Of a stretch of 45,367 nucleotides of DNA, positions 4,117 to 43,300 are shown piece by piece; position 1 is the stretch's first letter; each line of letters opens with the position of its first letter. Under the pieces are notes generated by a model, which worked only from the letters and a program-made list of their open reading frames with translations, was not told where the DNA came from and ran no database searches. The position numbers were made by a program, and so were the translations under genes. Source of the stretch: Desulfitibacter sp. BRH_c19 (GTDB lineage: Bacteria; Bacillota; DSM-16504; Desulfitibacterales; Desulfitibacteraceae); NCBI GenBank assembly GCA_001515945.1, contig LOER01000012.1, forward strand, positions 1-45,367. The letters run 5' to 3'.

Positions 4117-5646
4117 TTAGTCTTCCATAAGCCATTGTCTCAATAGCGCTGCTGTTTCTTCTGGTTTGTCTTTTGCTACCTTCTGTACCTTTTCCTGTTT
4201 TTTGACTGATTCTTCCTTTGGTTTAGGAGGCTCAATTTCCTCTTCCATTTGTCCTACTGGAATTGGTCTTTGCAAAACCGGGTCCGTCTTAAATGCTTCT
4301 CCAAGGGTTTTAACAATTATTACTAATAATATGAAACCTAATATTGCAGCTAAAGCTCTAAACCCCCAGCCTATATATGTTTTCATCTGTTCTTCTTTCC
4401 TCTGTTGCAAAGAGGTTACTGTCATCTGCGCCTCAGCTTCCTGTAATGCTGTTTTATCAAACTCCATGCTCATTACTGCAATCTGGTCTCCCCGTTCAGG
4501 ATTAAAACCTATTGCAGCACCAACAACTTGACGGATTGATTCAACCATTTCATCTGTAAGTGTACCGTCAATGGCAACTGCAGTTGATAAGGAAATAAGT
4601 CTACCTGGTGCATAAACAACAGTTTCCTGAAGCTGATCCAACTCATAGTTGGTGACTCTTTCAGATATAGTACTACCACTATCACCGCTTTCCAATTCAG
4701 GATAAGTTGTACCCAAATCTTGAAGGTTATCCTCTCCTACAACTCCACCTTCAGCATTGTTAATATGTTGTTCATCAATTATTTCTTCACTTCTAATATG
4801 TGATTCGCCAAACTCAATTCTAGTAACTTCACGCCGATCATAATCAAGCTCTGCTGTCACCATGGTAACAGCTTGACCATTACCCAGCATCGGCCGCAAA
4901 AGATTTTCTACTTTCTGTTCTAAATCTTTTTCAAATTTTCTTTTTTGCTCAAACTGTTTTCCTTGTGAAACCATTAAACTTCCACTATCATCAAACAGCC
5001 CTTCACTTAGGATAATTCCTTGTGTATCAATAATATTTACGTTCTCGACTGCTAACCTCTCTACACTTCCTGAAACAAGATTTACTATGGCCATTACCTG
5101 GTCTGGGCGTAAAGTAGCCATTGGAGCAAGCTTTACAACTATAGAAGCAGATGCTTTTCCCTGGTCTCTAATAAATAGACTCTGTTCGGGAATAACTAGA
5201 TGAACCCTCGCTTGTTCTACTGCCTCAAGCTGTATAACTGTCCTTCTAAGCTCCTCCTGTAGTGCTCTCTGATAATTAAGCTGCCTTTCAAAATCAGTAA
5301 TTCCCAATTTACTCTCGTCAAATAGCTCAAAACCTGTACCACCAGAAGCAATTACCCCTGAAGCAGCTAATTGTAGACGCAAATCATAGACTTGATTTGC
5401 AGGAACCAAGATAGTAGTACCTTGATTCGCTAATTGATAAGGGACACCCATCTCTTGTATTTTATTCACAACTTCCCCTGCTGCCGTTGGTTCCATGCCA
5501 GTAAACAGTTCAGCATATTCAACCTTTGTAAACCACTGTACAAAAAAACCAGCAGATAGAAATACTGCTATGGTCATAACAATAAAGATAGTCTTTTGTG
5601 TTTTTGTTAAGGCTTTCCATTTTGCACTAATAACTGATAAATTCAT
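4117..5646 (-). CDS. fliF: FliF, MS-ring protein
   Basis: Forms the membrane MS-ring, the base of the flagellar basal body. 509 aa with one transmembrane helix near residues 21-40 and a second near 425-450, and ring-building motifs between them (QVRVHLVIP-type segment; periplasmic low-complexity loop rich in D/E/G/S). The charged C-terminus ending in LLRQWLMED is the FliG-binding tail. The longest frame begins at TTG 5667, only 2 nt from GGAG, so the ATG at 5646 with GGGGG 11 nt upstream is preferred. It is 61 nt downstream of fliE. Confidence 0.96.
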   Translation of the reverse strand: MNLSVISAKWKALTKTQKTIFIVMTIAVFLSAGFFVQWFTKVEYAELFTGMEPTAAGEVVNKIQEMGVPYQLANQGTTILVPANQVYDLRLQLAASGVIASGGTGFELFDESKLGITDFERQLNYQRALQEELRRTVIQLEAVEQARVHLVIPEQSLFIRDQGKASASIVVKLAPMATLRPDQVMAIVNLVSGSVERLAVENVNIIDTQGIILSEGLFDDSGSLMVSQGKQFEQKRKFEKDLEQKVENLLRPMLGNGQAVTMVTAELDYDRREVTRIEFGESHIRSEEIIDEQHINNAEGGVVGEDNLQDLGTTYPELESGDSGSTISERVTNYELDQLQETVVYAPGRLISLSTAVAIDGTLTDEMVESIRQVVGAAIGFNPERGDQIAVMSMEFDKTALQEAEAQMTVTSLQQRKEEQMKTYIGWGFRALAAILGFILLVIIVKTLGEAFKTDPVLQRPIPVGQMEEEIEPPKPKEESVKKQEKVQKVAKDKPEETAALLRQWLMED

Positions 5647-5707
5647 TGCTATTCTAACCCCCAACAAATCTCCATTGTTAACGAATATATATGGAAAGTA
5701 TTAATCA

Positions 5708-6004
5708 TTATATCTGCATCTTACTTATTTCCTGATATGCTTCAATTAGCTTATTTCTTATTTGTAATGTAAGCTGCATTGCTAGTTCTGCCTTTTCAGT
5801 TGCTATCATAACTTCATGTAACTCCACATCATCACCTACTGCCATTCTCTGTGTCAATACATCAGCTTCTATCTGTAATTCATTGGTTTTATTTAAATTT
5901 TCCTTTAAAAAGCTAGCAAAACTACCTAGTTCAACCTTAGGTTTATTATTAGTTGCTACATTAGGTAAGCTCAATGGTTGTACTTGAAATAATGAAACTT
6001 TCAT
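5708..6004 (-). CDS. fliE: FliE, hook-basal body junction protein
   Basis: 98 aa. FliE joins the MS-ring to the proximal rod and is an early export substrate. The conserved segment F-A-S-F-L-K-E-N-L (about 27-36) and the C-terminal helix with HEVMIATEKAELAMQLTLQIRNKLIEAYQEI are the family signature, including the ending Y-Q-E-I-S/M-x-M-Q-I. Directly follows flgC by 8 nt, the invariant order flgB-flgC-fliE. Confidence 0.95.
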   Translation of the reverse strand: MKVSLFQVQPLSLPNVATNNKPKVELGSFASFLKENLNKTNELQIEADVLTQRMAVGDDVELHEVMIATEKAELAMQLTLQIRNKLIEAYQEISKMQI

Positions 6005-6012
6005 TTACTTTT

Positions 6013-6441
6013 TTAGCCCCTTCCTATTTCCAAGGCCTTTAAGGCCATGGCTTTTGTAGCATTTAAAACTGTAACATTCGCTTCATAACCTCTTGTTGCT
6101 GTAATCATGTCTGCCATTTCTATTACTAAGTCAACATTGGGCATTGCAACAAAGCCTTTTTCATCGGCATCAGGATGGTTCGGATTATATACCATTTTGG
6201 GAGGGGATTGGTCTCTAACAATAGCTCCAACTTCTACGCCTTTTGTTTCATAAGTTCTACCGTTACTATTCAACTCCCTAGATAGTTTTTCTTTAAATAC
6301 TGCTGCTCTTTTTTGATAAGGTCCACCGTCAGGAGATCTAGTTGTGCTTGCATTTGCAATGTTGTTAGCCACTATATCTAATCTAAGCCTTTCAGCTGTG
6401 AGTCCGCTTGCACTAATATTTAGAGTATTAAACAATTTCAT
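6013..6441 (-). CDS. flgC: FlgC, proximal rod protein
   Basis: 142 aa rod protein with the N-terminal flg_bb_rod motif (ISASGLTAERLRLDIVANNIANAST) and the C-terminal motif ending EANVTVLNATKAMALKALEIGRG, both used for helical packing in the axial structure. Normal length for FlgC. Starts at ATG 6441 with AGAAGG upstream; only 2 nt separate it from flgB. No signal peptide, as expected for a type III export substrate. Confidence 0.96.
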   Translation of the reverse strand: MKLFNTLNISASGLTAERLRLDIVANNIANASTTRSPDGGPYQKRAAVFKEKLSRELNSNGRTYETKGVEVGAIVRDQSPPKMVYNPNHPDADEKGFVAMPNVDLVIEMADMITATRGYEANVTVLNATKAMALKALEIGRG

Positions 6442-6854: not shown

Positions 6855-7000
6855 TAAACTTCCTCCCATATAACAGTTTTTGCAAACCATAAACTGTCAG
6901 GATAGGCACAAAAACGCCTTAAAAACCAATTATGTCCAATAGAGATAAATTCAACAAATTTAACAAATTTCCTGCAAAATCTGACATCTTTTTTTCAAAC

Positions 7001-7046
7001 AAAAAAACCTACCAATTGCTAGATAAAGCAAAGGCAGGATAGGTTT
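7001..7046 (-). terminator. Intrinsic terminator of the flgB-operon riboswitch (expression platform)
   Basis: On the minus strand AAACCTATCC (7037-7046) pairs with GGTAGGTTT (7005-7013), one bulged base, with an inner TTGC/GCAA stem, followed by a run of seven T. It lies between the c-di-GMP aptamer and flgB. Two parts of its left arm can pair with the aptamer instead: AACCT with AGGTT at the aptamer 3' end, and CTTTGC with the conserved GCAAAG. Confidence 0.85.
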
Positions 7047-7057
7047 ATTCAACCCAC

Positions 7058-7145
7058 ACTTTGCAACCTGGCAATCATGGTTCATAAATTAGAACGTTAG
7101 ACCCAAGGCTTTGCGTCACCACCTTTCAATGGTTTTGCCCTCAAT
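7058..7145 (-). promoter_or_regulatory. c-di-GMP-I (GEMM) riboswitch aptamer upstream of flgB
   Basis: The minus strand contains the hallmark GEMM-I string: GGGCAAA, a CC...GAAA...GG hairpin with the GAAA tetraloop, then GACGCAAAGCC, GGGTCTAA, a variable hairpin and GATTGCCAGGTTGC at the 3' end. This is the same arrangement as the Vc2-type aptamer that binds cyclic di-GMP. It is followed by a terminator and then flgB, the arrangement described for the flagellar operon of Clostridioides difficile, where c-di-GMP causes termination. The off-switch polarity here is inference from the expression platform. I could not identify a clear promoter between 7146 and 7230. Confidence 0.93.
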
Positions 7146-7230
7146 ATTCAATATTTTACAGACAGTATTCTACATTAAACTTCATATTCCTTTTAATTTA
7201 TACCACATTTTGTAAAAAGATCTAAGAAAT

Positions 7231-8731: not shown

Positions 8732-8756
8732 AAGGTGCCTTTAGGGGCACCTTTTG
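8732..8756 (+). terminator. Terminator after the glutaredoxin gene
   Basis: Stem AAGGTGCC/GGCACCTT (8732-8739 with 8746-8753) followed by TTTTG, 19 nt after the stop codon. Confidence 0.85.
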
Positions 8757-8805: not shown

Positions 8806-10053
8806 TTAGCTATCAAGCAGTGGAAGAACTTCCACTATTTTAAAATCTCTTTCTTTTGCAAGATTAACAAAGGAATCTTCTGTTTTAACCATAGGTTTTG
8901 ATATAAACTCTCTACTGTTAACAAGAATGACTGTTGCCTTTTCCCCGTTACTGAGAATTACATTATTACCAATATAACTACTAGCTATGTTATATAAAAA
9001 AGGTCTTAAATAGGTTAAATCAAACTGCTCCGCACATTCATTCTCGAGGTAATCCATAATTACAAACGGACACCCTTTCTTTGCATATGGACGTTCTGAA
9101 ACCATTGCCGCATAAACATCAGCAATCGCTACAATCTTACCAAACACACTTATTTTCTCACCCTTTATGGCCATTGGATATCCAGCACCATCAAATCTTT
9201 CATGATGCATTAAAACCCCAAGAACCACTTCTCGCTCTATGTCAGGAATATTTTTCAATATTTCATAACCATACTCGCTATGTTTTTTCACCAGGCTGTA
9301 TTCTTTTGTAGTTAAGGCACCCTGTTTATCTAATAGGTTCTTATCTATCTTTGATTTTCCAATATCATGAAGCACGCCTGTTTTTGCTAAAAGGGAAACA
9401 TTCTTATCATCTAGACCAACCCATTTTCCCAAGAGAGAAGCTAACAGAGCCACCTTTAATGAATGGGTATAGAGATAATCATCTTTACTAATAGTTTTCT
9501 CAAGTATCTTCAATGGTAAATTTGTGTTGGCCTGTCGTGCGATTGATCCAGTTACTGCCTCAACATACTCCACATCTAATGGATTTCCATTACCAACTTC
9601 TTGGATAAGTTTTTTAATCTTATCTTTATCTACCTCATAGCCCTTATCGACATAGTTATTTATATGAGTTTCGGATTTTAACTGCTCATCCTGGGGCACC
9701 TCACTTTTATATACTAGAACTTCCTCATAGTTAAGTTTCTGAAGGACTTCAATGAAGTGGTCATTTAATATACTGCCCTTTGAAATTAGTTCTGTTCCAT
9801 ATGTAGATACAATGTCCATGGCTAAAACCATTCCAGTAATTAAATCCTTTACGCTTATGTACTCAGTATTTCTATTTAAAAGACTCATGAAGTACTCTCC
9901 TTCATTACATATTATGGTATAGCTTAGCATACAATCCCTGTGAAGTACTTTTTCAAGTTCCAATCTTTCCTGGGGACTTAGGATATCACCACTATTGTAA
10001 AAGGTTATTAAGTCCTCAATTAAATCATCATCTATTTTAAAAGTTTCATCCAT
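8806..10053 (-). CDS. HD-GYP domain protein, probable c-di-GMP phosphodiesterase
   Basis: 415 aa, cytoplasmic. Residues about 190-340 form an HD-GYP domain. H197 comes first, then H229-D230 in the HDIGKSKID motif, the signature HHERFDGAGYP at 283-293, and A-D-V-Y-A-A-M at about 311. All metal-binding and GYP residues needed to hydrolyse c-di-GMP to pGpG or GMP are visible. The N-terminal 130 residues contain a segment (VKDLITGMVLAMDIVSTYGTELISKGSILN) often found before HD-GYP domains; no receiver or membrane segment is seen. It is the second gene after a c-di-GMP-I riboswitch (33 nt after the FliL-like gene), so the enzyme probably sits under control of its own substrate. Confidence 0.9.
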   Translation of the reverse strand: MDETFKIDDDLIEDLITFYNSGDILSPQERLELEKVLHRDCMLSYTIICNEGEYFMSLLNRNTEYISVKDLITGMVLAMDIVSTYGTELISKGSILNDHFIEVLQKLNYEEVLVYKSEVPQDEQLKSETHINNYVDKGYEVDKDKIKKLIQEVGNGNPLDVEYVEAVTGSIARQANTNLPLKILEKTISKDDYLYTHSLKVALLASLLGKWVGLDDKNVSLLAKTGVLHDIGKSKIDKNLLDKQGALTTKEYSLVKKHSEYGYEILKNIPDIEREVVLGVLMHHERFDGAGYPMAIKGEKISVFGKIVAIADVYAAMVSERPYAKKGCPFVIMDYLENECAEQFDLTYLRPFLYNIASSYIGNNVILSNGEKATVILVNSREFISKPMVKTEDSFVNLAKERDFKIVEVLPLLDS

Positions 10054-10086
10054 ATCAAAGGCTTCCTATTAGTTCGTATCCCCCCT

Positions 10087-10503
10087 TTAATTAGTCAGTA
10101 TTTCTTGAAAATATACCCCTGTAGTCTCGGTGTTCAAGTTGTTATCAATTTTCAACTGTAACATATCCTTTAATTCATTCTCCTTCATTAAATCATTTAC
10201 CTGCTTTTCAGTAAGTTCATTAAAAAAATTTATACAAATTTCTTGAAGCTTAGGCTGATTCTGACTCAAAATCTCATATGTATTCCTTCCAGCTGTACCC
10301 ACAACAATAACTGCCTTTATATGATTTAGTTTTCCATCTGCTTCATCAGGCTTTAAATGGGTAGTGATTTCAACTGGTTCAGTAAAATATTCATCTAAAT
10401 CGATAGAAGTTTTACTTTGTACCATTACAGTAGCAATAACTACACTAATACTAATGAAAATAATTAAGACAAGAACAATTAATTTAAAATTTGAATTCTT
10501 CAT
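10087..10503 (-). CDS. FliL-like membrane protein
   Basis: 138 aa. One N-terminal transmembrane helix (about 8-28, short cytoplasmic N-terminus) is followed by an extracytoplasmic domain with the FliL pattern. That pattern is a beta-strand near I-K-A-V-I-V-V-G-T-A, then Q-P-K-L-Q-E-I-C-I-N-F-F-N-E-L (equivalent to the P-x-I-R-D-x-I-I segment), K-D-M-L-Q-L-K-I-D-N-N-L-N and a final V-Y-F-Q-E-I-L. FliL surrounds the stator and modulates torque or swarming. Conservation is weak and no other stator gene is nearby, so this may be a divergent paralogue. GGGGTG lies 5 nt before ATG 10503. It is the first gene behind riboswitch 2. Confidence 0.7.
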   Translation of the reverse strand: MKNSNFKLIVLVLIIFISISVVIATVMVQSKTSIDLDEYFTEPVEITTHLKPDEADGKLNHIKAVIVVGTAGRNTYEILSQNQPKLQEICINFFNELTEKQVNDLMKENELKDMLQLKIDNNLNTETTGVYFQEILTN

Positions 10504-10541
10504 TATAGCACCCCACTAATGTAAGTTTATAATTGGCAAAC

Positions 10542-10584
10542 AAAAAACTTAGTCTGCACACAAATAAAAAGGGCAAACTAAGTT
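10542..10584 (-). terminator. Intrinsic terminator of the FliL-like/HD-GYP riboswitch
   Basis: Minus strand AACTTAGTTTGC (10573-10584) pairs over 12 bp, one G-U, with GCAGACTAAGTT (10546-10557), followed by TTTTTTG. The left arm includes part of TTTGCCCT, which is perfectly complementary (8 bp) to AGGGCAAA at the 5' edge of the aptamer core. This gives a ready antiterminator that is exclusive with both ligand-bound aptamer and terminator. Confidence 0.9.
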
Positions 10585-10603
10585 AACCTAAATTAACCGA
10601 TAG

Positions 10604-10678
10604 TTGCAGCCTGGCAATCATAGCACATTGCTTTAGACCCATGGCTTTGCGTCACCATCTTTCAATGGTTTTGCCCTA
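10604..10678 (-). promoter_or_regulatory. c-di-GMP-I (GEMM) riboswitch aptamer upstream of the FliL-like and HD-GYP genes
   Basis: Minus strand carries AGGGCAAA, a CCATTGAAAGATGG tetraloop hairpin, GACGCAAAGCC, GGGTCTAA, a short variable hairpin and GATTGCCAGGCTGC. The core is nearly identical to the aptamer before flgB. The 3' side runs into the terminator at 10542-10584 and then the gene start at 10503. The expected effect of c-di-GMP is premature termination, by analogy and from the overlapping pairings. Confidence 0.93.
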
Positions 10679-10696
10679 ATGTAATTTTATATTATA

Positions 10697-10725
10697 GTTA
10701 TAATAATTCGATTTATATATGACAA
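10697..10725 (-). promoter_or_regulatory. Candidate sigma-A promoter for riboswitch 2
   Basis: Minus strand TTGTCA (10720-10725), 17-nt spacer, TATAAC (10697-10702), which would start RNA about 12-15 nt before the aptamer. An overlapping TATAAT a few bases downstream is an alternative -10 but has no good -35. Confidence 0.45.
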
Positions 10726-10768
10726 TTCCTTCCTAGAAGTAAATCAACTTCCATATTTATCCGCCAAC

Positions 10769-31460: not shown

Positions 31461-31778
31461 CTATACACAACCTGTTGGCTTTGGTAAACCTGCAGCCTTA
31501 CAAGCACCTTTTGCAGGACCAGTTGGGAAAAGCTCATAAACTTTGTTTAACTTGAAACCTGATTCTTTGCAAAGTTTTCTAACCATTGGTGCAATACCAA
31601 ACTCTTTGAAATAATTTCTTAAATAATTGATAAGATGCCAATGCTCTTCTGTTAGTTCATCTACTTCCTCTGCTTTAGCAAGAAGAATAGCAACTTCCTC
31701 ATTCCACTGATCTGGATCAACTAAAAAACCATCCTCATCTAATTCAATTTCCACGCCATTAACGTTTAATGAAGACAT
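31461..31778 (-). CDS. dsrC: DsrC, sulfur-carrier protein of sulfite reduction
   Basis: 105 aa. The C-terminal arm has both redox cysteines, Cys93 (G-A-C-K-A-A-G) and penultimate Cys104 (T-G-C-V), with the spacing of true DsrC. The body shows the family pattern D-P-D-Q-W-N-E-E-V-A, L-T-E-E-H-W-H-L-I-N-Y-L-R-N-Y. DsrAB loads sulfite-derived sulfur between the two cysteines as a trisulfide, which the DsrMKJOP complex is thought to reduce. GGAGGTG lies 8 nt upstream. It is 72 nt after the ferredoxin gene and has its own strong terminator. Confidence 0.97.
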   Translation of the reverse strand: MSSLNVNGVEIELDEDGFLVDPDQWNEEVAILLAKAEEVDELTEEHWHLINYLRNYFKEFGIAPMVRKLCKESGFKLNKVYELFPTGPAKGACKAAGLPKPTGCV

Positions 31779-31850
31779 TATGGCAACACCTCCGTCTTTA
31801 TAGTTTTATTTTTAAATTAACCAAAATTCTTCTTAGCATAATAATGCTAA

Positions 31851-32036
31851 CTACAGTTCTTGAAACTTAACAGCTTCGTTTGGACACACAGACACACAGC
31901 TTTCACAGCCCATGCACTCGCTAGCGTCTTCACAAATAGCCTTGCCATCCACTAGTTCAATAATGCTAACTGGACAAGCATCTACGCATTCACTACAACC
32001 ATCACATTTATCCTGATCGATAGTTATTAAATACAT
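31851..32036 (-). CDS. 2[4Fe-4S] ferredoxin
   Basis: 61 aa with two complete cluster motifs: C-D-G-C-S-E-C-V-D-A-C-P and C-M-G-C-E-S-C-V-S-V-C-P. It resembles the small ferredoxins found beside dsr genes and is a likely electron donor or acceptor for DsrAB; this partner is inference. GGGAGGGG is upstream of the ATG. Lies between the 60-aa unknown and dsrC. Confidence 0.95.
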   Translation of the reverse strand: MYLITIDQDKCDGCSECVDACPVSIIELVDGKAICEDASECMGCESCVSVCPNEAVKFQEL

Positions 32037-32171
32037 TATACAGCCCCTCCCTGAGTTTGCTAGTAGTTAAAACACGCACACTCTTATTAATTCTATTTAT
32101 GCGATGAAAACCCTTTTTGCAACTAATTTGATCTTATTATTCTAATTATAAGGACTCTAAATATGATATTC

Positions 32172-32354
32172 TTATTTATCAAAAATTACTTCGTCTTCAC
32201 ACTCATCTGCTAAATATGCTATCAATGATTGAATTACTACTTCCATACCGTCTGCAAAGCCAGTTTTGTATTCTGTAGACTTGTAATTTCTAATTTCCTC
32301 AATAATTTCCATATTTTCTTTTTCCCATTTTAGAACAATTTCTTGGAATTTCAT
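32172..32354 (-). CDS. Small unknown protein of the dsr cluster
   Basis: 60 aa, acidic, no membrane segment or cysteine motif (one Cys near the end). Helical, with K-T-G-F-A-D-G-M-E-V-V-I-Q-S-L-I-A-Y-L-A-D-E-C-E-D-E in the second half. A very strong GGAGGAG sits 6 nt before the ATG, and the frame follows dsrD on the same strand after a hairpin, so it is very likely translated. I do not recognise a family. Confidence 0.7.
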   Translation of the reverse strand: MKFQEIVLKWEKENMEIIEEIRNYKSTEYKTGFADGMEVVIQSLIAYLADECEDEVIFDK

Positions 32355-32452
32355 TAAAACTCCTCCACTATAAAATATTTTAATACTATACCTATTATTC
32401 CATATATGGGAGGATTAACATAGCAAAAAACTAAAATAATTAATTTAATTAA

Positions 32453-32503
32453 AGCCACCGCCAGTCCCTTAAGTAATTAAATAATTAAGTACGGGCGATG
32501 GCT
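32453..32503 (-). terminator. Hairpin after dsrD, likely partial terminator
   Basis: AGCCATCGCC (32494-32503, minus) pairs with GGCGGTGGCT (32453-32462) over 10 bp including one G-U, with an inner CTTAA/TTAAG stem. Followed on the minus strand by TTTAATTAAATT, a weak T-rich tail. It starts 8 nt after the dsrD stop and could set the ratio of dsrABD to the small genes downstream. Confidence 0.65.
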
Positions 32504-32510
32504 AAAATCG

Positions 32511-32720
32511 TTACTTACCTTTAATTTTTACAAAGGATGTTCCAAGGTACAAAAACTCTAGAACGTCTTGTTTTGCAAGTTCGTTGATTTGCTTATCTAC
32601 TAGTTTCTTTGGAACTCCAATAGCTTTAGCAACATCTCTATTCTTTGATTTATCTACGGTATTTAAATACGCCAATACTTTTTCCTGAATCTCTTCAGGT
32701 GTGAAATTATCTTCACTCAT
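32511..32720 (-). CDS. dsrD: DsrD, activator of dissimilatory sulfite reductase
   Basis: 69 aa winged-helix protein: P-E-E-I-Q-E-K-V-L-A-Y-L, K-N-R-D-V-A-K-A-I-G-V-P-K-K-L-V-D-K-Q-I-N-E-L-A-K-Q and the final L-Y-L-G-T-S-F-V-K-I-K-G-K. DsrD is found in sulfite-reducing (not sulfur-oxidising) organisms and is reported to stimulate DsrAB. Its presence argues that this dsr system runs in the reductive direction. GAGGTG is upstream; the gene is 46 nt after dsrB. Confidence 0.95.
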   Translation of the reverse strand: MSEDNFTPEEIQEKVLAYLNTVDKSKNRDVAKAIGVPKKLVDKQINELAKQDVLEFLYLGTSFVKIKGK

Positions 32721-32766
32721 TTATTTACACCTCACTAAGTTTGGGGACATTCAATGTCGCCCTTCC

Positions 32767-33840
32767 TTAAAACTTAAAGTTAGAGCTGGTTCTAAATGTT
32801 GGTAATGAGAAAACAAAATCGTCAATATGCTTATCTGTAAATGGAAGTTGTGCAATATCAAAGAATTTCTCCCAACCAATTCTTTCGATCCATTCGCCAT
32901 ATCTTTCGCCAGGCTGAGCATGTTTAACCCAAATTTCGGTTAGATTTACAACAGCTTCTACCAATTCTGGCCATCTTGGAGGAGTGTTTGGTATCCAAGG
33001 AATAGCTAAACGTGAGAATGCTGGACCACTTCTTGCATTTGCAACTTTACCACCGACAAAGATTGCAATACCGTCATTCTTTGGATCCACAATGGGTAAT
33101 GATGGACATACTGTATAGCAGTTACCACAGTACATACATTTCTCCTCATTAATAGTAACACTTTTAGCCTTTGGATTTGGCCTAATAGCTCCAGTTGGAC
33201 AACTAGCAATAACGTTTGGAATTTCACAACCTTTTGCTACACCTTCATCGTTAATTTTAGGAATTGTTCTATGAATACCAACAAATGCTATATCTGAACA
33301 GTGAACTGCTCCACACATGTTTAAGCAACAAGCCATTGAAATTTTTAGCTTAGCTGGTAGTTTGTCATACTTGAAATAATCATATAACTCATCCATAACT
33401 GACTTAACAGTACCAGATGCATCTGTAGCAGCACTATGGCAGTGAATCCAGCCTTGAGTGTGAATAATGTTGTTTAAAGAATTGCCTGTACCGCCTACTG
33501 GCCATCCCATTCCTTCAACTTCTTCAATTAAAGGCTGTACTTTGCTTTCATCTGATAGTAGAAACTCAACATTGTGTCTACTAGTAAAACGTAGGTGACC
33601 ATCGCAATACTTGTCTGCTATATCAGCAAATTCTCTCAATGTTACTATAGATAACAAACGTGGGGAACCTATTCTTACTGAATATAATGCTTCACCAGTT
33701 TCTGAAACGTGCTTTAAAACACCTGGTCTAACATTCTCGTGATATTTCCATTTTCCATAGTTGTCCTTGATAATCTGTGGCAACTGATCCTCATAGTGTG
33801 GAGGACCTATATCAGTTTTTGGCTTAAAAACTTGTGTCAT
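32767..33840 (-). CDS. dsrB: DsrB, dissimilatory sulfite reductase beta subunit
   Basis: 357 aa. The siroheme-[4Fe-4S] ligands are in [14 protein letters not shown] (about 180-193). The inserted ferredoxin domain has [12 protein letters not shown] (about 240). R-F-T-S-R-H-N-V-E contributes to substrate-binding arginines. With DsrA it forms the alpha2beta2 enzyme that reduces sulfite with DsrC as co-substrate. GGAGGTGA precedes ATG 33840, and the start is 2 nt after the dsrA stop, so coupling is likely. Confidence 0.97.
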
Positions 33841-33842
33841 GA

Positions 33843-35084
33843 TTACTTCACCTCCGCGTCTGAAGCTGCTTGCTTAAATGTATGATTGTTCATTTCTTCA
33901 AGTTCTTCTGGCCACCAGAAGAAGTATGGGTTAGCTCTTGGATGCTTAACCATTTGCGGCTTAGGTTCTAGGCCAACTTCTTTCAAGAAGGTTCTCATTC
34001 CTTTTCTGTAAATCAATTCGCCAACTCTTTCTCTAACTTTGGCGTTTTCATCCCACCAGTCCCAAATTCTTTCAAATAAATCTTTAAGTTCCGCATAACC
34101 ATCTTCTTTGTTAACCTTCATGAATGGTACAAGAACCCATGATAAGAAAGCTGACTGAACAAGTGTAGCTTTACCACCAATTAGAATTGTAACTCCTGTA
34201 TCTTTACCAATTCTTAATCCTTTTGGCATCTTGTTAATACAATGCATACATCTTACACAGTTCTCATCATCAACCTTAAACTCAAAAGTTTCTTGATTGA
34301 AGCTAATACACTTAGATGGGCACTTCTTGACAACAAGATTTAAAATATCATAACCACTCTTACCATATTCTGTAATCTGCTCTTGGTCTATTCTGATGTT
34401 ATCTCTCCATGTTCCAATTAGAGAAAGGTCTGCACGTGCAATAGATGACACACAATCATTAGCACAACCAGAAATTTTTATTTTTGACTTGTATGGCCAC
34501 ATTGGTCTGTGGAGATAATCCTGAAACTCGTTAGTTAAGTCATGGCATAAATCCATAGTATCAATGCATGCGTTTTCGCAACGAGCCATACCTGCACAAC
34601 AACTTGGACTTCTTAAGTTTGAACCTGATCCACCAAGGTCAAATCCACTATTTGAAAGTTCGTTAAAGCATGGTTGTAAGTGTGGAGTTGTTGTTCCTAA
34701 AAGGATAGCATCACCAGTTGCACCATGCATATTTGTTAAACCACTTCCATGTTTTTCCCAAATATCACATAGATTTCTTAATGTCTCACTTGAGTAAAAC
34801 CACCCACTTGGCTGATTAACTCTCATTGTGTGAAACTCAGCAACACTAGGATATTTGTCCCCTAGATCTGAGTATCTACCAATTACTCCTCCACCATAGC
34901 CTGTAACACCAACGATACCTCCGTGTTTCCAGTGAACACTATTATCTTCAAATGATGTTTCCAGAAGACCTAATAGGTCTTTTGTTGCTGCATTCTTGTC
35001 TTCCATTTTTTCAATTTCTTTTACAAAGCTTGGCCATTTGCCTTTTTTAAGCTCATCTAACATCGGCCTTTTGTTCTCTGTCAC
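33843..35084 (-). CDS. dsrA: DsrA, dissimilatory sulfite reductase alpha subunit
   Basis: 413 aa. Siroheme-cluster ligands are [12 protein letters not shown] and I-S-G-C-A-N-D-C (about 165-215). The ferredoxin domain has [12 protein letters not shown] (about 275). Length is normal for bacterial DsrA. The open frame reaches 35132, but GTG 35084 has GGAGGTGG 7 nt upstream and yields the usual [12 protein letters not shown] beginning. First gene after a leader of roughly 250 nt that contains a structured segment. Followed by dsrB and dsrD. Confidence 0.97.
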
Positions 35085-35192
35085 TAAACATCCACCTCCA
35101 GATAGTTTTTTTCTTTTTCTTTCTAACACCAACTCAATACTAAGTCTCCTTAGGGCCCCTCAGATATAATCTTTTATAACATAATAATTCCA

Positions 35193-35273
35193 AAAGTCGT
35201 GACTGTTAGCCTAATCATAATTGTTCAGGGCTAAATACCTCCGTCAAGCACTTGATATTTGGCTTTCGACTTT
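35193..35273 (-). promoter_or_regulatory. Structured leader segment upstream of dsrA (candidate cis-regulatory RNA)
   Basis: On the minus strand a 7-bp closing stem AAAGTCG/CGACTTT (35267-35273 with 35193-35199) encloses two hairpins. One has AAATA-TCAA, loop GTGC, TTGA, a 6-nt bulge CGGAGG and TATTT (35233-35260). The other is a 6-bp TTAGCC/GGCTAA stem (35206-35234). This is a three-way-junction-like layout. An additional 6-bp hairpin AAACCC/GGGTTT lies upstream at 35302-35316. It matches no riboswitch class I can recall. Pairings are visible; a regulatory role is inference. Confidence 0.4.
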
Positions 35274-35348
35274 GATTAGTATTGCTAAATGACCTCTGGG
35301 GTAAACCCTCTGGGTTTAATTGCAAAACTTTGAAGGAGAGTTTAATAA

Positions 35349-35377
35349 ATATTAGGTTCAATATTGTTTTTGCCCAA
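35349..35377 (-). promoter_or_regulatory. Candidate promoter of dsrA
   Basis: Minus strand TTGGGC (35372-35377), 17-nt spacer, TAATAT (35349-35354). It overlaps an 8-bp inverted repeat TCAATATT/AATATTGA. Lies about 62 bp downstream of the CRP/FNR-like palindrome, almost the same distance as for resB. The start would be near 35342. Confidence 0.45.
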
Positions 35378-35405
35378 TAATATTGAGTTGAATAGTTACG
35401 AAATA

Positions 35406-35425
35406 CTTTGTGCCATTTGTCACAG
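35406..35425. promoter_or_regulatory. CRP/FNR-family operator upstream of dsrA
   Basis: TTTGTGCCATTTGTCACAG: dyad TGTG-N8-CACA (35409-35424) close to the CRP/FNR consensus TGTGA-N6-TCACA. It shares 17 of 19 positions with the site at 43301-43319 upstream of resB. The rest of 35426-35574 holds two plain inverted repeats (35535-35562 region and ATCTG/CAGAT near 35561-35574) and no gene. Confidence 0.65.
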
Positions 35426-35574
35426 GTACTAACATGACATATTGAACACGCTTACTTAACCTTTATTAGACTTTCGGATCTAAAAATCCTGCATGTTTAT
35501 TATTGCGATTTCTGATTACAATGATAGTTTTTTTATATAACAAGGTGACTCCTTGATTATATCTGTTATCAGAT

Positions 35575-36576
35575 CTACTCTTTGTCGACAGGTAAGCCAA
35601 CGCCTTTCATCTTGTCTCGGTACTCATCTTCATATTCTTCATAGGTATGGACAGCCACAGGATAATTCCATGGATTAACATGTCTTTGAGCTCTGTTGTT
35701 ATTAACCATATTACGTGTTGGGCTCATAAATATACCTGCCATGTGTGTTAGCTTACTAAATGGGAAGTAAGTGAGTAGTGTGCTAACCAAGAAAAGGTGA
35801 ATATAAAAGATTACTCCAATATCACCAGGAACTGTTGGGTTAAATGTCACAAGGCCCATAGCCAATTCTTTAACACGGATTATGTCTACCCTGAAAAAAT
35901 ATTTCATTAATATCCCAGAAGAGGCTATTCCAAAGATCAATAATAGCGGAAAATAGTCAGCAGGTAGCGATATATATTTTACATGTGGAATAAGTACCCT
36001 TCTAATAAATAGGTATGTCACAGCAACTAAAAGTGCAATACCAGTTAAATACAGAGCTTCCAAATTCACCTGAAAAGCTCCATCTATACTTTGAAGAAAT
36101 TGGACAAAGCCCGGCACTGGTTCTGTAAAAAATCTAAGATGCCTTACAACAACTATCAAAAACGACCAGTGGAATACCAGACCTGCCAACCAAAGCCACT
36201 TTTCCCAATGATATACAACCTTTTTGCCATTATTTCCATCAACTAGTTGAGCTTTGGTATTTCTAAACAATGATCTAAAAAATACTACTTCGAAAAACAT
36301 TCTTATTATAACCCCTGCTTTTGTAGAAGGGTTATCGATTTTATTTTGTTTAAACCATGGTAATGACCTTTGCTGGCCACATGTTGTAGGTATGCGAAAT
36401 GGAACAGGAGATCGTGACCATTTTACAATACGATAAACAAGACCAAACACGAAAGCTGCAAAGGCTATATAGGGGATTAACACCCCAAAGAGGAACTGCA
36501 TTCCTATAACCTCTACTCCCAGGTAAACACCCAAAATGAGTGCAACAACCATGAGTAAAGAAACTTGTATACCCAT
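35575..36576 (-). CDS. dsrM: DsrM, membrane cytochrome b subunit
   Basis: 333 aa integral membrane protein with about six helices (residues 5-30, 30-48, 125-145, 172-192, 205-225, 255-275) and a NarI-like core. Histidines placed for heme b ligation include H134 (F-H-W-S-F) and the H-L-F-L-V-S-T-L-L-T-Y-F-P-F-S-K-L-T-H-M region near 258-280. In Dsr complexes DsrM oxidises menaquinol and passes electrons to DsrK. Here the gene is last, 24 nt after dsrP, instead of first as in the canonical dsrMKJOP order. Confidence 0.93.
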   Translation of the reverse strand: MGIQVSLLMVVALILGVYLGVEVIGMQFLFGVLIPYIAFAAFVFGLVYRIVKWSRSPVPFRIPTTCGQQRSLPWFKQNKIDNPSTKAGVIIRMFFEVVFFRSLFRNTKAQLVDGNNGKKVVYHWEKWLWLAGLVFHWSFLIVVVRHLRFFTEPVPGFVQFLQSIDGAFQVNLEALYLTGIALLVAVTYLFIRRVLIPHVKYISLPADYFPLLLIFGIASSGILMKYFFRVDIIRVKELAMGLVTFNPTVPGDIGVIFYIHLFLVSTLLTYFPFSKLTHMAGIFMSPTRNMVNNNRAQRHVNPWNYPVAVHTYEEYEDEYRDKMKGVGLPVDKE

Positions 36577-36600
36577 TCATATCCCTCATTTCATGTATTT

Positions 36601-37761
36601 TTAAATCCCCGTATTTTCCTTTACTGAAATAACTATTCTGTAAAAGATACTAATTATGAAAATGCCTATTGCCCAAATTCCTAAGGTAATGAAAAGTTCA
36701 TTTATAGTTGGTAAATACTCAGTTATTCTACCAAACGGATTAACTACTAGTCCTGCAACTACAAAAGCTAATCCCTTTTCAATAAGCATTGCCAGGAAAA
36801 CTGCTATACAGGCAATTATCAATGTGCCATCTTTTGATCTTGTTTTGGGGTTAATCAAAAGATACAATGCAATAACTGCTAGTATTGCAAAAATCCACAT
36901 GAATGGAACCATGGCATTGTGACCATGTGATCCCATAAACAGGTATTGTAAACTATGCATATGACCAGGTACCTGGCTAAAGAAAGCAACAAAGAATTCT
37001 ACACCAAGTAAAAAGATAGTTATGGAAAATGCATAAGTTACTATTATTGATAACTTCCTAATTGCTTCTTTTCCTGCATCAAAATTTGCAAATTTCTTTA
37101 ATGCAAAGCATATAAGAATCAAAAGGGCAGGACCAGTAGCAAATGCACCCACTAAAAATTTTGGTGCAATTAGAGCTGTTAACCAGTAATGACGTCCAGG
37201 AAGACCTGAGTATAAAAATGCAGTAACTGTATGAATACTCACAGCCCACGGAATAGAAACATACGTCAATGTTTTTACCCATTTAGGGGCAGAAATTGCT
37301 TTGCGCTCTGCCTCTAAAACATTCCAAGCAATTAAAATATTTAATAATAGGTAGCCAGTTAAAACCATGAAATCCCAAAACATAGGTGAATTTGGTGTTG
37401 GAAATAGGATCATATTGAGAACTCTCATAGGCATACCCATATCTACAACAATGAATAACATGCACATTATTACTGAAGCAACAGCCAGAAACTCACCAAC
37501 AACAGTTATTCGGCCAAACTCTTTAACATTATGGAGATAATATGGTAACACAACCATTACAGCTGATGCTGCAACTCCAACAAAAAAAGTAAATTGAGCT
37601 ATATAAAGCCCCCAGGATACATCCCTGCTCATTCCTGTAACTGTAAGTCCTTGATTTAGTTGAACTAAATAAAAGCCAAAACCTGTTCCAATCAAAACAA
37701 GTAAAAATAATAGCCATCCATAATAGTATTTTGAAGCTTCCTTAAAAGCTTTTTCTATCAT
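36601..37761 (-). CDS. dsrP: DsrP, NrfD-like membrane subunit
   Basis: 386 aa with about ten transmembrane helices, NrfD/PsrC family. It opens I-E-K-A-F-K-E-A-S-K-Y-Y-Y-G-W-L and holds conserved stretches such as D-M-G-M-P-M-R-V-L-N-M-I and S-I-H-T-V-T-A-F-L-Y-S-G-L-P-G-R. It is the quinone-interacting anchor that works with the DsrO iron-sulfur protein. ATG 37761, 9 nt after GGGAGGGG, is preferred to the upstream TTG at 37770. Starts 18 nt after dsrO. Confidence 0.94.
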   Translation of the reverse strand: MIEKAFKEASKYYYGWLLFLLVLIGTGFGFYLVQLNQGLTVTGMSRDVSWGLYIAQFTFFVGVAASAVMVVLPYYLHNVKEFGRITVVGEFLAVASVIMCMLFIVVDMGMPMRVLNMILFPTPNSPMFWDFMVLTGYLLLNILIAWNVLEAERKAISAPKWVKTLTYVSIPWAVSIHTVTAFLYSGLPGRHYWLTALIAPKFLVGAFATGPALLILICFALKKFANFDAGKEAIRKLSIIVTYAFSITIFLLGVEFFVAFFSQVPGHMHSLQYLFMGSHGHNAMVPFMWIFAILAVIALYLLINPKTRSKDGTLIIACIAVFLAMLIEKGLAFVVAGLVVNPFGRITEYLPTINELFITLGIWAIGIFIISIFYRIVISVKENTGI

Positions 37762-37779
37762 GTACACCAACCCCTCCCT

Positions 37780-38541
37780 CTACACTATATAGTAAATCTT
37801 AGGCTTTGTACCATAAGAAATTTTTCGCTGGATATTATAACTGGATGCTAACAGCTTACGAACATCGGAATTTGGGTCATCCAAATCCCCAAAGGTAAAT
37901 ACTCCATTTGGACAAGCCTCCACACAAGCTGGTGGCAAACCTACTGATAACCTTTCGTCACATAAGTTGCACTTTTCAACAACACCCTTGGTTCTGGTTG
38001 GAAATTCCTTATTCACTTCTTCAATATGGGGTCTAGGATCGCTAAAGTTAAAACTTCTTGCTCCATAGGGGCAAGCAGCCATACAATAGCGGCACCCTAT
38101 ACACCTATGATAATCCATCATCACTACTCCGTCTTTTCTTTTAAAGGTAGCTTGAGTAGGGCAAACCCTTACACAGGAGGGGTTTTCACAATGGTTGCAC
38201 AGTACTAAAACATCTCTATTCTTTGTAGATTCATCCACATAATCATGGCTTTGGTAAGGGAGAGCATTTTCATGTGGTTCAGTCCAGAGCCATTTTACTT
38301 CTTCTTTTGTATTGCCTATGCTAGGAACATTGTGGGCCAGATGACATGCATCAATACAATCATTGCAGTAATCACATTTACTCATATCTATCGCCATGCC
38401 CCACTTGTTACCAGCTAATGCTTTAGAGCTTGGGAGAAATTTTGGATTGTTGCTGGCGACAACATTGACAAGAGGCATTACTCCTAACCCAAGGGCACAG
38501 GCTCCACCAAACTTGATAAATTTTCTTCTATTTATATCCAT
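37780..38541 (-). CDS. dsrO: DsrO, exported iron-sulfur subunit
   Basis: 253 aa. The N-terminus N-R-R-K-F-I-K-F-G-G-A-C-A-L-G-L-G is a Tat signal, so the protein acts outside the membrane. Four [4Fe-4S] motifs follow: C-D-Y-C-N-D-C-I-D-A-C, C-N-H-C...C-V-R-V-C-P, C-I-G-C-R-Y-C-M-A-A-C-P, and C-N-L-C...C-V-E-A-C-P. It carries electrons between DsrJ and DsrP. ATG 38541 with AAAGGAGGAG upstream is chosen over 38565. Confidence 0.94.
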   Translation of the reverse strand: MDINRRKFIKFGGACALGLGVMPLVNVVASNNPKFLPSSKALAGNKWGMAIDMSKCDYCNDCIDACHLAHNVPSIGNTKEEVKWLWTEPHENALPYQSHDYVDESTKNRDVLVLCNHCENPSCVRVCPTQATFKRKDGVVMMDYHRCIGCRYCMAACPYGARSFNFSDPRPHIEEVNKEFPTRTKGVVEKCNLCDERLSVGLPPACVEACPNGVFTFGDLDDPNSDVRKLLASSYNIQRKISYGTKPKIYYIV

Positions 38542-38554
38542 TACTTCTCCTCCT

Positions 38555-38938
38555 TTATTCAACATGACAAGTCCAGCAGGTGGGATCTACGTCAGCAAAA
38601 TCATGACATGCATCACAAAACTGGTCCTTGTTGGAGTGACATTCTAAACATGTATTTTGCAAACTCATGTTATATTCCTCACCATTGGCTTCCGACACAT
38701 ACACTCTATTGCCTTCACGTACAACAGACACCTTCCAGTCACTTAACAACTGCATATGATTACCTCTCATAAATTCAGCATCCTCAATACATTGCGCCTC
38801 TGCAAGAGACTGTATCTCTGGTGTGTTAAAGCTTATGTCGGGAGCTGCAGCAGATTTCCCAAAACTACCCCAAAATGGATAGCTAAATAGGATAACTAAT
38901 ACTGCAATTCCAATAATAATATTACGGGAGTTATTCAT
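38555..38938 (-). CDS. dsrJ: DsrJ, triheme cytochrome c
   Basis: 127 aa. An uncleaved N-terminal helix (about 7-25) anchors it outside the membrane. Three C-x-x-C-H heme c sites lie in the last 40 residues: C-L-E-C-H, C-D-A-C-H and C-W-T-C-H. DsrJ is the periplasmic-side cytochrome of the DsrMKJOP complex. ATG 38938 has GGAGGAGG 6 nt upstream; ATG 38944 abuts that site. The start overlaps the end of dsrK by 8 nt. Heme attachment would need the ResB/ResC genes encoded just upstream. Confidence 0.95.
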   Translation of the reverse strand: MNNSRNIIIGIAVLVILFSYPFWGSFGKSAAAPDISFNTPEIQSLAEAQCIEDAEFMRGNHMQLLSDWKVSVVREGNRVYVSEANGEEYNMSLQNTCLECHSNKDQFCDACHDFADVDPTCWTCHVE

Positions 38939-40544
38939 CGTCATCCTCCTCCGTTCCTAGAGGTTCAAAACGTAAATTCTCAGTTCTTTTCTTTTCACCC
39001 TCCATAACAAGGGCATTACCAACTAGCTCGTGAACACTACATACATCCACCTGTGGGTTCCAATATCTCATTAACGGTGGCAGAGTTGCCCTATCAATGG
39101 CACAAACACATGAAAGCATATTCACGCCATGTTTTTCGTGAACATAGTTTACTGCATTGGCTCTTGGGAAGCCTCCACGCATCCTCATTTCCATGTTCTC
39201 ATCTGAACCAAGACCTGCACCCCCACCGCAACAGAAGGTGTGTTCTCTAATTGTGTCATCAGGCATTTCATAGAAGTTATTACAAACGTGCTTGAGAATA
39301 TACCTAGGTTCCTCAAGGAGTCCCATAGCCCTAGATGGGTTACATGAATCGTGATAGGTAACCTTCAACTCGTCATTTCTGCTAGGATCTAGCTTGAGTT
39401 TGTTATGATACAGAAGGTCAGAAGTAAATTCTGTAATATGAACCAACTTTGTGGATTTCGTATTTTCAAATTTTGTTCCAGTTATAGGTGAAACAGGGAC
39501 TTCTAGAAAATCAGCAGGTCCATTCATGGTATCCATGTACTGATGGACCACCCTCCACATATGACCACATTCCCCACCAAGTATCCATTTGACACCTAGT
39601 CTTTTGGCCTCGGCATATATTTTAGCATTTAATCTTTTTGCCATTTCCATAGAAGCAAATGAACCAAAGTTTCCTCCTTCTGAAGCGTAAGTACTCAAAG
39701 TATAGTCCAGTCCAATTTCATGCATTACCATTAGCTGACCCATAATTCCAAATGTACCTGGATCAGCAAAAAGGTCTCCTGATGGAGGAACATATAAAAT
39801 TTCCGCACCTTTTCTATTCCAAGAAGGATCAATTTTTATTTCTGTAAGGTCTTCAATGTTTTCTACTAAAAAGTCCATTGAATCTACCAAACCATGTGGC
39901 TGTATTCCCAAGTGATTACCCTTCATATAACAGTTAGCTACAGGTGTGATTACCCAATCTGTATTGCAGCCAATTAGATTAAGTAGTTCTCTACCTATCA
40001 TGGTTATCTCAGCAGTATCAATGCCATATGGGCAGTATACTGAACAGCGCCTGCACTCTGTACATTGGAAGAAATAATAAAACCATTCCTTTATTACATC
40101 CTCAGTTAAATCTCTTGCCCCAACCATTTTACCCATGATTTTGCCGGCAGTAGTATACTCTTTTCTATATACAGATCTTAATAGTTCAGCTCTTAAAACT
40201 GGCATGTTTTTGGGATCACCGGATCCTATAAAAAAGTGACATTTATCTGCACAAGCACCACACCTTACACAGATATCCATAAATAATTTTAAGGAGCGAA
40301 ATCTTTCAAGTCTTTCTCTAAGACCATCAAAAATTATTTGTTTCCAGTTCTCAGGGAGTTTCCAATCTTCATCTTCTGGAGACCACTTCCTGGGGTTAGG
40401 AAAATCAATAATTTCTAGGCTCTCTGCTTTACCTGGATAACACCAAGTCCCAGGTTTAAAATCAACTGGTGTATCCATCCACCCTGTTTTAGGGGGATTA
40501 TAATCTATGCTGAGCAGTTGATCTCGCTTTGGAGTTTTTGCCAT
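38931..40544 (-). CDS. dsrK: DsrK, HdrD-like iron-sulfur catalytic subunit
   Basis: 537 aa. Two [4Fe-4S] motifs (C-V-R-C-G-A-C-A-D-K-C near 92 and C-T-E-C-R-R-C-S-V-Y-C-P near 165) are followed by CCG-type domains (H-D-S-C-N-P-S-R and F-C-C-G-G-G-A-G-L near 440). These bind the noncubane cluster that cleaves disulfides or trisulfides in heterodisulfide reductase. DsrK is proposed to reduce the DsrC trisulfide. GAGAGGGTGA is upstream of the ATG. First dsr gene of the membrane-complex operon here. Confidence 0.96.
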   Translation of the reverse strand: MAKTPKRDQLLSIDYNPPKTGWMDTPVDFKPGTWCYPGKAESLEIIDFPNPRKWSPEDEDWKLPENWKQIIFDGLRERLERFRSLKLFMDICVRCGACADKCHFFIGSGDPKNMPVLRAELLRSVYRKEYTTAGKIMGKMVGARDLTEDVIKEWFYYFFQCTECRRCSVYCPYGIDTAEITMIGRELLNLIGCNTDWVITPVANCYMKGNHLGIQPHGLVDSMDFLVENIEDLTEIKIDPSWNRKGAEILYVPPSGDLFADPGTFGIMGQLMVMHEIGLDYTLSTYASEGGNFGSFASMEMAKRLNAKIYAEAKRLGVKWILGGECGHMWRVVHQYMDTMNGPADFLEVPVSPITGTKFENTKSTKLVHITEFTSDLLYHNKLKLDPSRNDELKVTYHDSCNPSRAMGLLEEPRYILKHVCNNFYEMPDDTIREHTFCCGGGAGLGSDENMEMRMRGGFPRANAVNYVHEKHGVNMLSCVCAIDRATLPPLMRYWNPQVDVCSVHELVGNALVMEGEKKRTENLRFEPLGTEEDDDE

Positions 40545-40622
40545 TGTATCACCCTCTCACTAGTTTTAAATTCACAATTCATTATTGCCTCGGTGGGTTT
40601 TATATCCTTTCGTATAAGTCCC

Positions 40623-41138
40623 TTACTGGTTTAAAGTATTGATCCTTTCTGAAATATCACACCTTTTTTTCACTTCATCTATTCTTATTTGATAAATAGT
40701 TTCTCTGCACTTAGAATAAACTTCAAAGGCTACAAGGGCAATATCATCAATTCTTTTTTCAATAACAGCCAATTCCTTATACATTACCTCCTCTCCCAAT
40801 TGACTATGAAGTTCTTCTCTTATTACCCTCTTTAATATAAAAATAAATGCAATTGCCTTAGATGGCGAAAAATCCTGTACTGCTTTAATTCTAATAATTT
40901 TGTCTAGATAAATGTGCATTTTTTCAAAACCCATATCTTGTAACAGTTCTTCAAAAATGCCTTGTAGTCCGTCATGCATGTTACTACCAACTGGATTAGC
41001 GAATTGACTTTTATCACTTTTTAGGAGTTCTACTGTTTTATCCGGATACTCATGACATAAATAATTGAACCATTTTGTTATAATTATGGACTTCTTATCT
41101 AAAAGTAAGGTCTTTAAACTTTCTGGGATTTGTATCAT
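40623..41138 (-). CDS. RsbRD N-terminal-domain protein preceding dsrK
   Basis: 171 aa, soluble and helical. It has the RsbRD N-terminal-domain signature: W-F-N-Y-L, F-A-N-P-V-G-S-N-M (about 52-60), I-I-R-I-K-A-V-Q-D-F-S-P-S-K-A-I-A-F-I-F-I-L-K and C-R-E-T-I-Y-Q-I-R-I-D-E. In stressosome proteins this fold senses signals and resembles a globin-like bundle. Single-domain copies occur before dsr membrane-complex genes in sulfate reducers; their role is not known. ATG 41138 has GGGGGTGA 9 nt upstream and is preferred to 41234, because the upstream stretch is a purine-rich intergenic repeat (AAGAGGCATGAGGCAAG). Confidence 0.8.
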   Translation of the reverse strand: MIQIPESLKTLLLDKKSIIITKWFNYLCHEYPDKTVELLKSDKSQFANPVGSNMHDGLQGIFEELLQDMGFEKMHIYLDKIIRIKAVQDFSPSKAIAFIFILKRVIREELHSQLGEEVMYKELAVIEKRIDDIALVAFEVYSKCRETIYQIRIDEVKKRCDISERINTLNQ

Positions 41139-41226
41139 CGGAGATTCACCCCCTTTCAGGATACGTGCAGGAGGTAGGATGCTAAGATGCATTCTTGCCT
41201 CATGCCTCTTGTTTCTTATCTCTTGT

Positions 41227-42051
41227 TTAGGCATAGCTGTGTATTCCAGGAAGCAAATAGCTTACTCCAAGAAAAGTAAAGAGTACTGCACCAAAACCAA
41301 TGATTGATAAGACAGCTGCTTTTTTTCCTCTCCAGTTTCTCATAAGCCTAACATGGAGATATGCAGCATATATAAGCCAAGTAATTAAAGCCCATGTTTC
41401 CTTTGGATCCCATGACCAATACGATCCCCATGAAAACTCTGCCCAAATAGCTCCTGTAACAAGCATTATTGTTAAAAAAGGCATGCCGATAAAAACTACT
41501 TTATAGGATATCTCATCTATTAGTTCCAAACTAGGAAGGGTTCCTATTATTTTGTTATTTGCATTTTGAGATAACAACCAGTCTTTTAGAAGATACATTA
41601 TCGATAAGGCAAAGGAAACTGCAAAAGCTCCATATGCTACAGCAGCACTAAGGACATGCACAAATAGCCAGTTGCTTCGTAATGCTGGCATCATGGGTCT
41701 TACAGAAGTATCTAAGGTAAATAGCCATATCAACAATACTATTGCTATAGGAAGTACAAATATACCTGTAGTCCATAGGTCATACTTATAGTCAATGATA
41801 ATAAATACAGCAGCTATTCCCCACACAAAAAATAAGCCAAATTCAAAAAGATTAGTTAGAGGAAGTGTTCCGGTTAATACTGTCCTAATACCTAATAATA
41901 CAGTAGTCATTACAAAGGCGCCTATTGTACAAATTCTTGCTAATTTCTTCAAATAAGCCTTTGACAAAATAAAGCATAAAACATATATTAATAAGGCTAA
42001 TGTATAGCCAATAATAGATATTGTCATAATGGGTGTTTGCAGACTTTCCAT
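41227..42051 (-). CDS. resC: ResC/CcsA-type cytochrome c synthase subunit
   Basis: 274 aa, about eight transmembrane helices. It holds the heme-handling tryptophan-rich motif W-G-S-Y-W-S-W-D-P-K-E-T-W-A-L-I-T-W near residues 205-222, and histidines in V-H-V-L-S-A and Y-L-H-V-R-L-M for external heme ligation. With ResB it forms system II, which exports heme and attaches it to C-x-x-C-H sites, here presumably those of DsrJ. The ATG directly follows the resB stop (TAAATG). Confidence 0.93.
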   Translation of the reverse strand: MESLQTPIMTISIIGYTLALLIYVLCFILSKAYLKKLARICTIGAFVMTTVLLGIRTVLTGTLPLTNLFEFGLFFVWGIAAVFIIIDYKYDLWTTGIFVLPIAIVLLIWLFTLDTSVRPMMPALRSNWLFVHVLSAAVAYGAFAVSFALSIMYLLKDWLLSQNANNKIIGTLPSLELIDEISYKVVFIGMPFLTIMLVTGAIWAEFSWGSYWSWDPKETWALITWLIYAAYLHVRLMRNWRGKKAAVLSIIGFGAVLFTFLGVSYLLPGIHSYA

Positions 42052-43191: not shown

Positions 43192-43300
43192 TACAGTATT
43201 CCTTTCAAAATATAGAGTTAATTTCAATACTAACACACCGCATCAGTATATACCTATTCGTGAATATTGTATATGCTGTATTCGCTCCTCGTACTGAAAC

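Follow-up and report, generated by a model that had tools for sequence, protein, structure and literature searches.

A c-di-GMP-I riboswitch predicted to act as an OFF switch ahead of an operon for a FliL-like protein and a putative HD-GYP phosphodiesterase in Desulfitibacter sp. BRH_c19

The targets of c-di-GMP-I (GEMM-I) riboswitches are mostly motility and surface genes, and in Clostridioides difficile the riboswitch Cd1 precedes flgB and is an OFF switch, at which c-di-GMP stops transcription of motility genes (PMC6366702). Transcription of flgB in C. difficile starts from a SigA promoter (PMC7438776). The triple-tandem Bc3-5 of Bacillus thuringiensis, in contrast, consists of ON switches in which the terminator uses aptamer bases (PMC4759541). 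The leader described here resembles Cd1 in having a class I aptamer with an intrinsic terminator downstream, and differs from it in the operon that follows, which encodes a putative c-di-GMP phosphodiesterase together with a FliL paralog and would thus close a feedback loop, as well as in its predicted sigma-H-type promoter. With Bc3-5 it shares the aptamer class and control by transcription termination, but the terminator is separate from the aptamer, whereas the Bc3-5 terminator takes aptamer bases and so gives ON behavior.

The window, that is, the whole 45,367-nt stretch of Desulfitibacter sp. BRH_c19 DNA analysed, had been proposed in the earlier note to hold an aptamer and a terminator ahead of a two-gene unit, a layout to be checked by an Rfam RF01051 scan. 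The scan returns a full-length aptamer at 10602–10685 on the minus strand (model positions 1–87, 76.5 bits with the gathering threshold at 35, window-wide E 2e-13), and a terminator hairpin and two minus-strand open reading frames 33 nt apart (10087–10503 and 8806–10053) follow it as proposed. The ligand-contact positions of the Vc2 aptamer are G20, A47 and C92 (PMC4744006). In the alignment, the GNRA-type tetraloop, the GACGCAAAGCC block and the ligand-contact positions, the latter matched by eye, are all found in the aptamer, and its P1 stem is weak. This RNA is a canonical GEMM-I aptamer, and a response to c-di-GMP is predicted. At the other end of the operon, a palindromic terminator-like hairpin, scored on the plus strand only, lies at 8732–8753 between the converging glutaredoxin and HD-GYP genes. 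The window also carries, at positions 31461–43236, dsrC-like and dsrAB-like genes together with electron-transfer genes of the DsrK/NrfD type, which makes a Gram-positive sulfite or sulfate reducer the probable host.

Among 60 searched relatives, a single genome of the same genus (G002) carries both proteins, at 62% and 77% identity. There too, the FliL-like gene comes first and the HD-GYP gene second, downstream of a GEMM-I aptamer scoring 73.1 bits, and the flgB riboswitch unit lies farther downstream. The pair is absent from a second relative, the 85% complete genome G001, and searches of named genome contigs and of viral contigs gave no relatives of the HD-GYP or the FliL-like protein. G002 supplies the ortholog to which the features of the leader and of its proteins can be compared.

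The expression platform contains an intrinsic terminator hairpin at 10546–10584 on the minus strand, with a 12-bp stem of −13.5 kcal/mol and a T-run at 10545–10540. The distance from the end of the aptamer match to the start of the terminator is 17 nt in both species (the G002 hairpin has −16.7 kcal/mol), and the two elements do not overlap, so that aptamer and terminator can coexist. The terminator also offers a partner for the aptamer. The element TTTGCCCT in its 5′ arm and loop (10570–10577, minus strand) provides an 8-bp complement to the aptamer 5′ strand, and UUUGCCCU in the 5′ arm is the exact complement of AGGGCAAA, the 5′ strand of the ligand-contact region at 10670–10677 (minus strand), which is the predicted antiterminator partner. 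A complement of 8 bp was reached by 72 of 2000 shuffles (3.6%), while none of 2000 shuffles reached the 11 bp of the G002 ortholog. The linker between aptamer and terminator has diverged between the species, but the block AACTTAGTTTGCCCT is identical in both.

Folding of the apo RNA is consistent with this pairing. In RNA truncated inside the terminator loop, 58% and 67% of the 5′ arm of the terminator is paired with the aptamer in the two species, and the best apo fold uses a GGGCAAA:UUUGCCC helix. At full length, the terminator is thermodynamically favoured even without ligand, and switching must therefore be kinetic. Both species thus have the elements of an OFF-type layout, with the terminator lying clear of the aptamer and a predicted antiterminator drawing on aptamer bases. 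Since these bases are also needed for ligand binding, c-di-GMP is expected to cause termination at the FliL-like/HD-GYP operon. The earlier note had left both polarities open; the position of the terminator and the antiterminator kept in the ortholog now favour OFF, and with it the positive-feedback branch of that proposal.

The opposite polarity would make c-di-GMP promote read-through, so that the phosphodiesterase is induced by its own substrate in a homeostatic negative feedback. Riboswitches on metabolic genes usually serve homeostasis, and ON layouts do occur among the GEMM-I riboswitches of this genome, as at a pilus-gene riboswitch (L010) whose terminator overlaps the aptamer by 15 nt, in the manner of the ON switches Bc3-5 (PMC4759541). 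At the operon studied here, by contrast, the terminator uses no aptamer bases and both elements can be present at once; the conserved complement would tie the aptamer to the terminator arm in the manner of an antiterminator. The homeostatic ON switch was rejected on this layout, and we consider it improbable.

The preferred OFF reading gives the following sequence of events. Transcription would begin at a sigma-H-type promoter and produce a leader with the GEMM-I aptamer. Without c-di-GMP, AGGGCAAA would pair with UUUGCCCU, no terminator would form, and the FliL-like protein and the HD-GYP phosphodiesterase would be made. With c-di-GMP, the AGGGCAAA strand would be held in the ligand-bound aptamer, the terminator would form and the operon would be off. 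High c-di-GMP would in this way lower one route of its own degradation, a positive feedback favouring either a low, motile or a high, sessile state. We put the probability of this proposal as a whole, an OFF switch through which c-di-GMP represses its own degradation by way of the FliL-like/HD-GYP operon, at roughly two in three.

The second gene of the operon (8806–10053, minus strand) encodes a 415-aa HD-GYP domain protein, P0001, a putative c-di-GMP phosphodiesterase with a domain match to HD_5 (4e-26). Its best PDB match and best solved relative is PmGH (4mcw, E 1e-31), from which it differs by an extra N-terminal region of about 65 residues that is kept in the ortholog; an AlphaFold model of the protein alone reached a pLDDT of 35 and was left out of the analysis. 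The motifs HDIGK and HHERFDGAGYP provide the HD and HHExxDGxGYP signatures. PmGH residues H189, H221, D222, H250, H276, H277 and D305 are retained as H197, H229, D230, H258, H283, H284 and D312, and the D183 and K225 pair as D191 and K233. Two positions have changed. E185 is replaced by Tyr193, a residue common in the subfamily, and D308 by Ala315, with Ser in the G002 ortholog and Asp in most relatives. The claim that all catalytic residues are present thus stands for the HD, K, H, HH, D and GYP residues that P0001 has in common with PmGH, and falls at E185 and D308.

These replacements bear on activity, as in PmGH the D308A mutation is as damaging as mutations of metal ligands, while E185A kept some activity (PMC4159591). 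An OFF riboswitch could accordingly control a degenerate HD-GYP protein that binds c-di-GMP and cleaves it inefficiently, serving as a motor-associated effector, or one that cleaves another cyclic dinucleotide. The Ala or Ser at the D308 position in both orthologs, the Tyr at E185 and the pairing of the gene with one for a FliL-fold protein all fit such a protein. However, P0001 retains seven of the eight metal ligands, the D183/K225 pair and the HHExxDGxGYP motif in its entirety, and the role of D308 in PmGH depends on R192, which is absent here too, so the D308 position may matter less in P0001. A degenerate protein is therefore unlikely in our view, and P0001 is likely, though not certain, to be active as a c-di-GMP phosphodiesterase.

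The first gene of the operon (10087–10503, minus strand) encodes a FliL-like protein of 138 aa with a single transmembrane segment, P0002, a paralog of canonical FliL. It passes the Pfam FliL cut-off narrowly (PF03748, 26.6 bits against 24.6; the ortholog scores 26.1), and its single-sequence structure model (pLDDT 78) has FliL proteins as all of its top Foldseek matches, with probability 1.00 (9hmf_O, E 2.8e-5; 7sgn; 6ahp; 6ahq). The FliL-like identity first read from the sequence is thereby upheld by both the family score and the predicted structure. P0002 shares its predicted fold, an N-terminal transmembrane helix and a periplasmic domain with FliL of Campylobacter (9hmf), Helicobacter (7sgn) and Vibrio (6ahp). 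Unlike canonical fliL, which the genome search places at C16 between motB and fliM among MotB-like, FliM-like and FliP-like frames (73.7 bits), the P0002 gene is not located with motAB/fliM; this diverged second copy lies apart from the motB-fliL-fliM cluster and is paired with the HD-GYP gene. Co-transcription with a FliL paralog makes a motor-local action of c-di-GMP conceivable, as a speculation.

Sigma-H promoters follow the consensus RNAGGAWWW-N11-RNNGAAT. The window holds only three matches to this motif, all of them in two riboswitch leaders, where 0.21 would be expected and none of 100 shuffles reaches three. One match, GAAGGAATT-N11-ATCGAAT, lies just upstream of the FliL-like/HD-GYP riboswitch (10706–10732, minus strand). 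The other two belong to the flgB leader, which contains a second GEMM-I aptamer (7059–7149, minus strand, 74.4 bits) and a terminator (7008–7046, minus strand; the core hairpin 7008–7038 was computed and the outer pairs were read by eye) ahead of flgB-flgC-fliE-fliF. Here, one site precedes the aptamer (7167–7193, minus strand) and one lies between the terminator and flgB (6949–6975, minus strand). All three have counterparts in G002, and both flgB sites are conserved in G001 as well. The genome encodes sigma-H (378.6 bits), and the motif matches 42 times genome-wide against 8 for the reversed pattern. These matches suggest that the FliL-like/HD-GYP leader is transcribed from a sigma-H-type promoter, and sigma-H appears to drive the motility-linked GEMM-I units of this order. 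Read-through from an upstream gene was set aside as a source of operon transcription, being unneeded with a promoter-like site just upstream. A sigma-H-like motif also lies 42–43 nt upstream of the aptamer at two G003 riboswitches, one preceding an MCP gene and the other a cheW-cheA operon (L049 and L052).

The inner site at 6949–6975 sets the two units apart. If transcription starts there, the flgB operon would no longer be subject to its riboswitch, while the FliL-like/HD-GYP unit would stay under the control of its own. The earlier note had suggested that the motile and sessile states could become bistable through this operon together with the flgB riboswitch. The positive feedback in that suggestion is favoured, but the flagellar coupling is weakened by the conserved sigma-H-like site past the flgB terminator, from which transcription would avoid the flgB riboswitch.

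The genome has 10 RF01051 matches above the cut-off. Two of the aptamers (L008 and L009) precede two near-identical stand-alone EAL genes (on L073 at 5061–5756, minus strand; on L074 at 5707–6426, minus strand) in which the EAL, N, E, DD, K and E motif residues are present, and G002 has one corresponding EAL unit behind a GEMM-I aptamer (L065, L083). The terminators of the two EAL units start 20 nt past the aptamer, with −18.9 and −18.4 kcal/mol. A shuffle test gave no significant Watson-Crick complement to the aptamer in the EAL leaders of this genome; from the terminator position and G-U pairs only, OFF polarity may be assigned to these units too. A conserved ORF of about 45 codons, with an M/V-A-K-I-E-V-H-L-S-E-E-E-K-like start, directly follows the GEMM-I element in L073, L074, L083 and L071.

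Beyond the genus, an HD-GYP gene is first or second behind 14 of 80 GEMM-I sites sampled across the phylum, a sample biased to high scores, and these 14 sites (L144, L149, L156, L158, L166, L167, L169, L175, L179, L187, L198, L202, L213 and L219) carry 11 family labels. Their terminators lie mostly beyond the aptamer; for L149, L156, L158 and L169, where the folding scan merged aptamer and terminator into one hairpin, compact downstream terminators were read by eye and are a matter of judgement. Some of the HD-GYP proteins in the survey are multidomain, with a GGDEF domain. Other GEMM-I aptamers stand before an agr-like operon with AgrB-like, sensor-like and LytTR-type response regulator genes (L070 on G000:C11, L077 and L087); here short direct repeats (TTTTAGACATTAAAA), spaced by about 20 bp, lie between the terminator and the first gene. 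Tandem aptamers (L042/L050 and L045/L060, in G001 and G002) precede putative secreted-protein genes.

How much the feedback matters depends on the other enzymes of the cell. OFF polarity implies positive feedback on c-di-GMP, and in a minimal model with non-cooperative repression a fold appears across almost the entire parameter sample when Km is lower than the riboswitch K and unregulated phosphodiesterase makes up a small share, and almost never when Km is at least ten times the riboswitch K. True bistability of the motile and sessile states is possible in this model and does not follow from positive feedback alone; as a claim about the cell it is speculative. The operon may instead be a plain member of the motility regulon, with a riboswitch that merely co-regulates it with flagellar genes and a phosphodiesterase share too small for feedback. 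Several observations fit such a role: the genome holds 15 GGDEF and 6 EAL matches besides many HD-GYP candidates, bistability disappears from the minimal model once unregulated enzyme predominates and the enzyme works unsaturated, and motility and surface genes are the main GEMM-I targets (PMC6366702). Against it, two more phosphodiesterase units of the genome stand behind switches of this type, and GEMM-I aptamers precede HD-GYP genes repeatedly across the phylum. Simple regulon membership is thus a real but lesser possibility, and we retain the OFF switch with feedback on c-di-GMP degradation as the preferred reading.

Each part of this arrangement is of a known kind; what is modestly new is that the parts are combined and that the combination recurs. 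A literature search, with the earliest GEMM papers, which may mention it, outside its scope, gave no report of phosphodiesterase control by GEMM-I recurring in this way. The arrangement has been reported as rare, yet one genome holds three phosphodiesterase units of this type, and a sizeable share of the sampled GEMM-I sites of the phylum has it, mostly in OFF layout. A broader picture can be offered tentatively, and with less confidence than the local proposal: in this lineage, c-di-GMP riboswitches may repress several phosphodiesterase operons (the HD-GYP/FliL-like and two EAL units) along with a flagellar regulon under sigma-H, giving an RNA-based, self-reinforcing, low-c-di-GMP motile state tied to a sporulation sigma factor; the control of phosphodiesterases by OFF GEMM-I riboswitches would extend phylum-wide. 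If the switches behave as predicted, RNA alone would close a positive feedback loop on c-di-GMP, and the sigma-H link would join motility, c-di-GMP and entry into sporulation.
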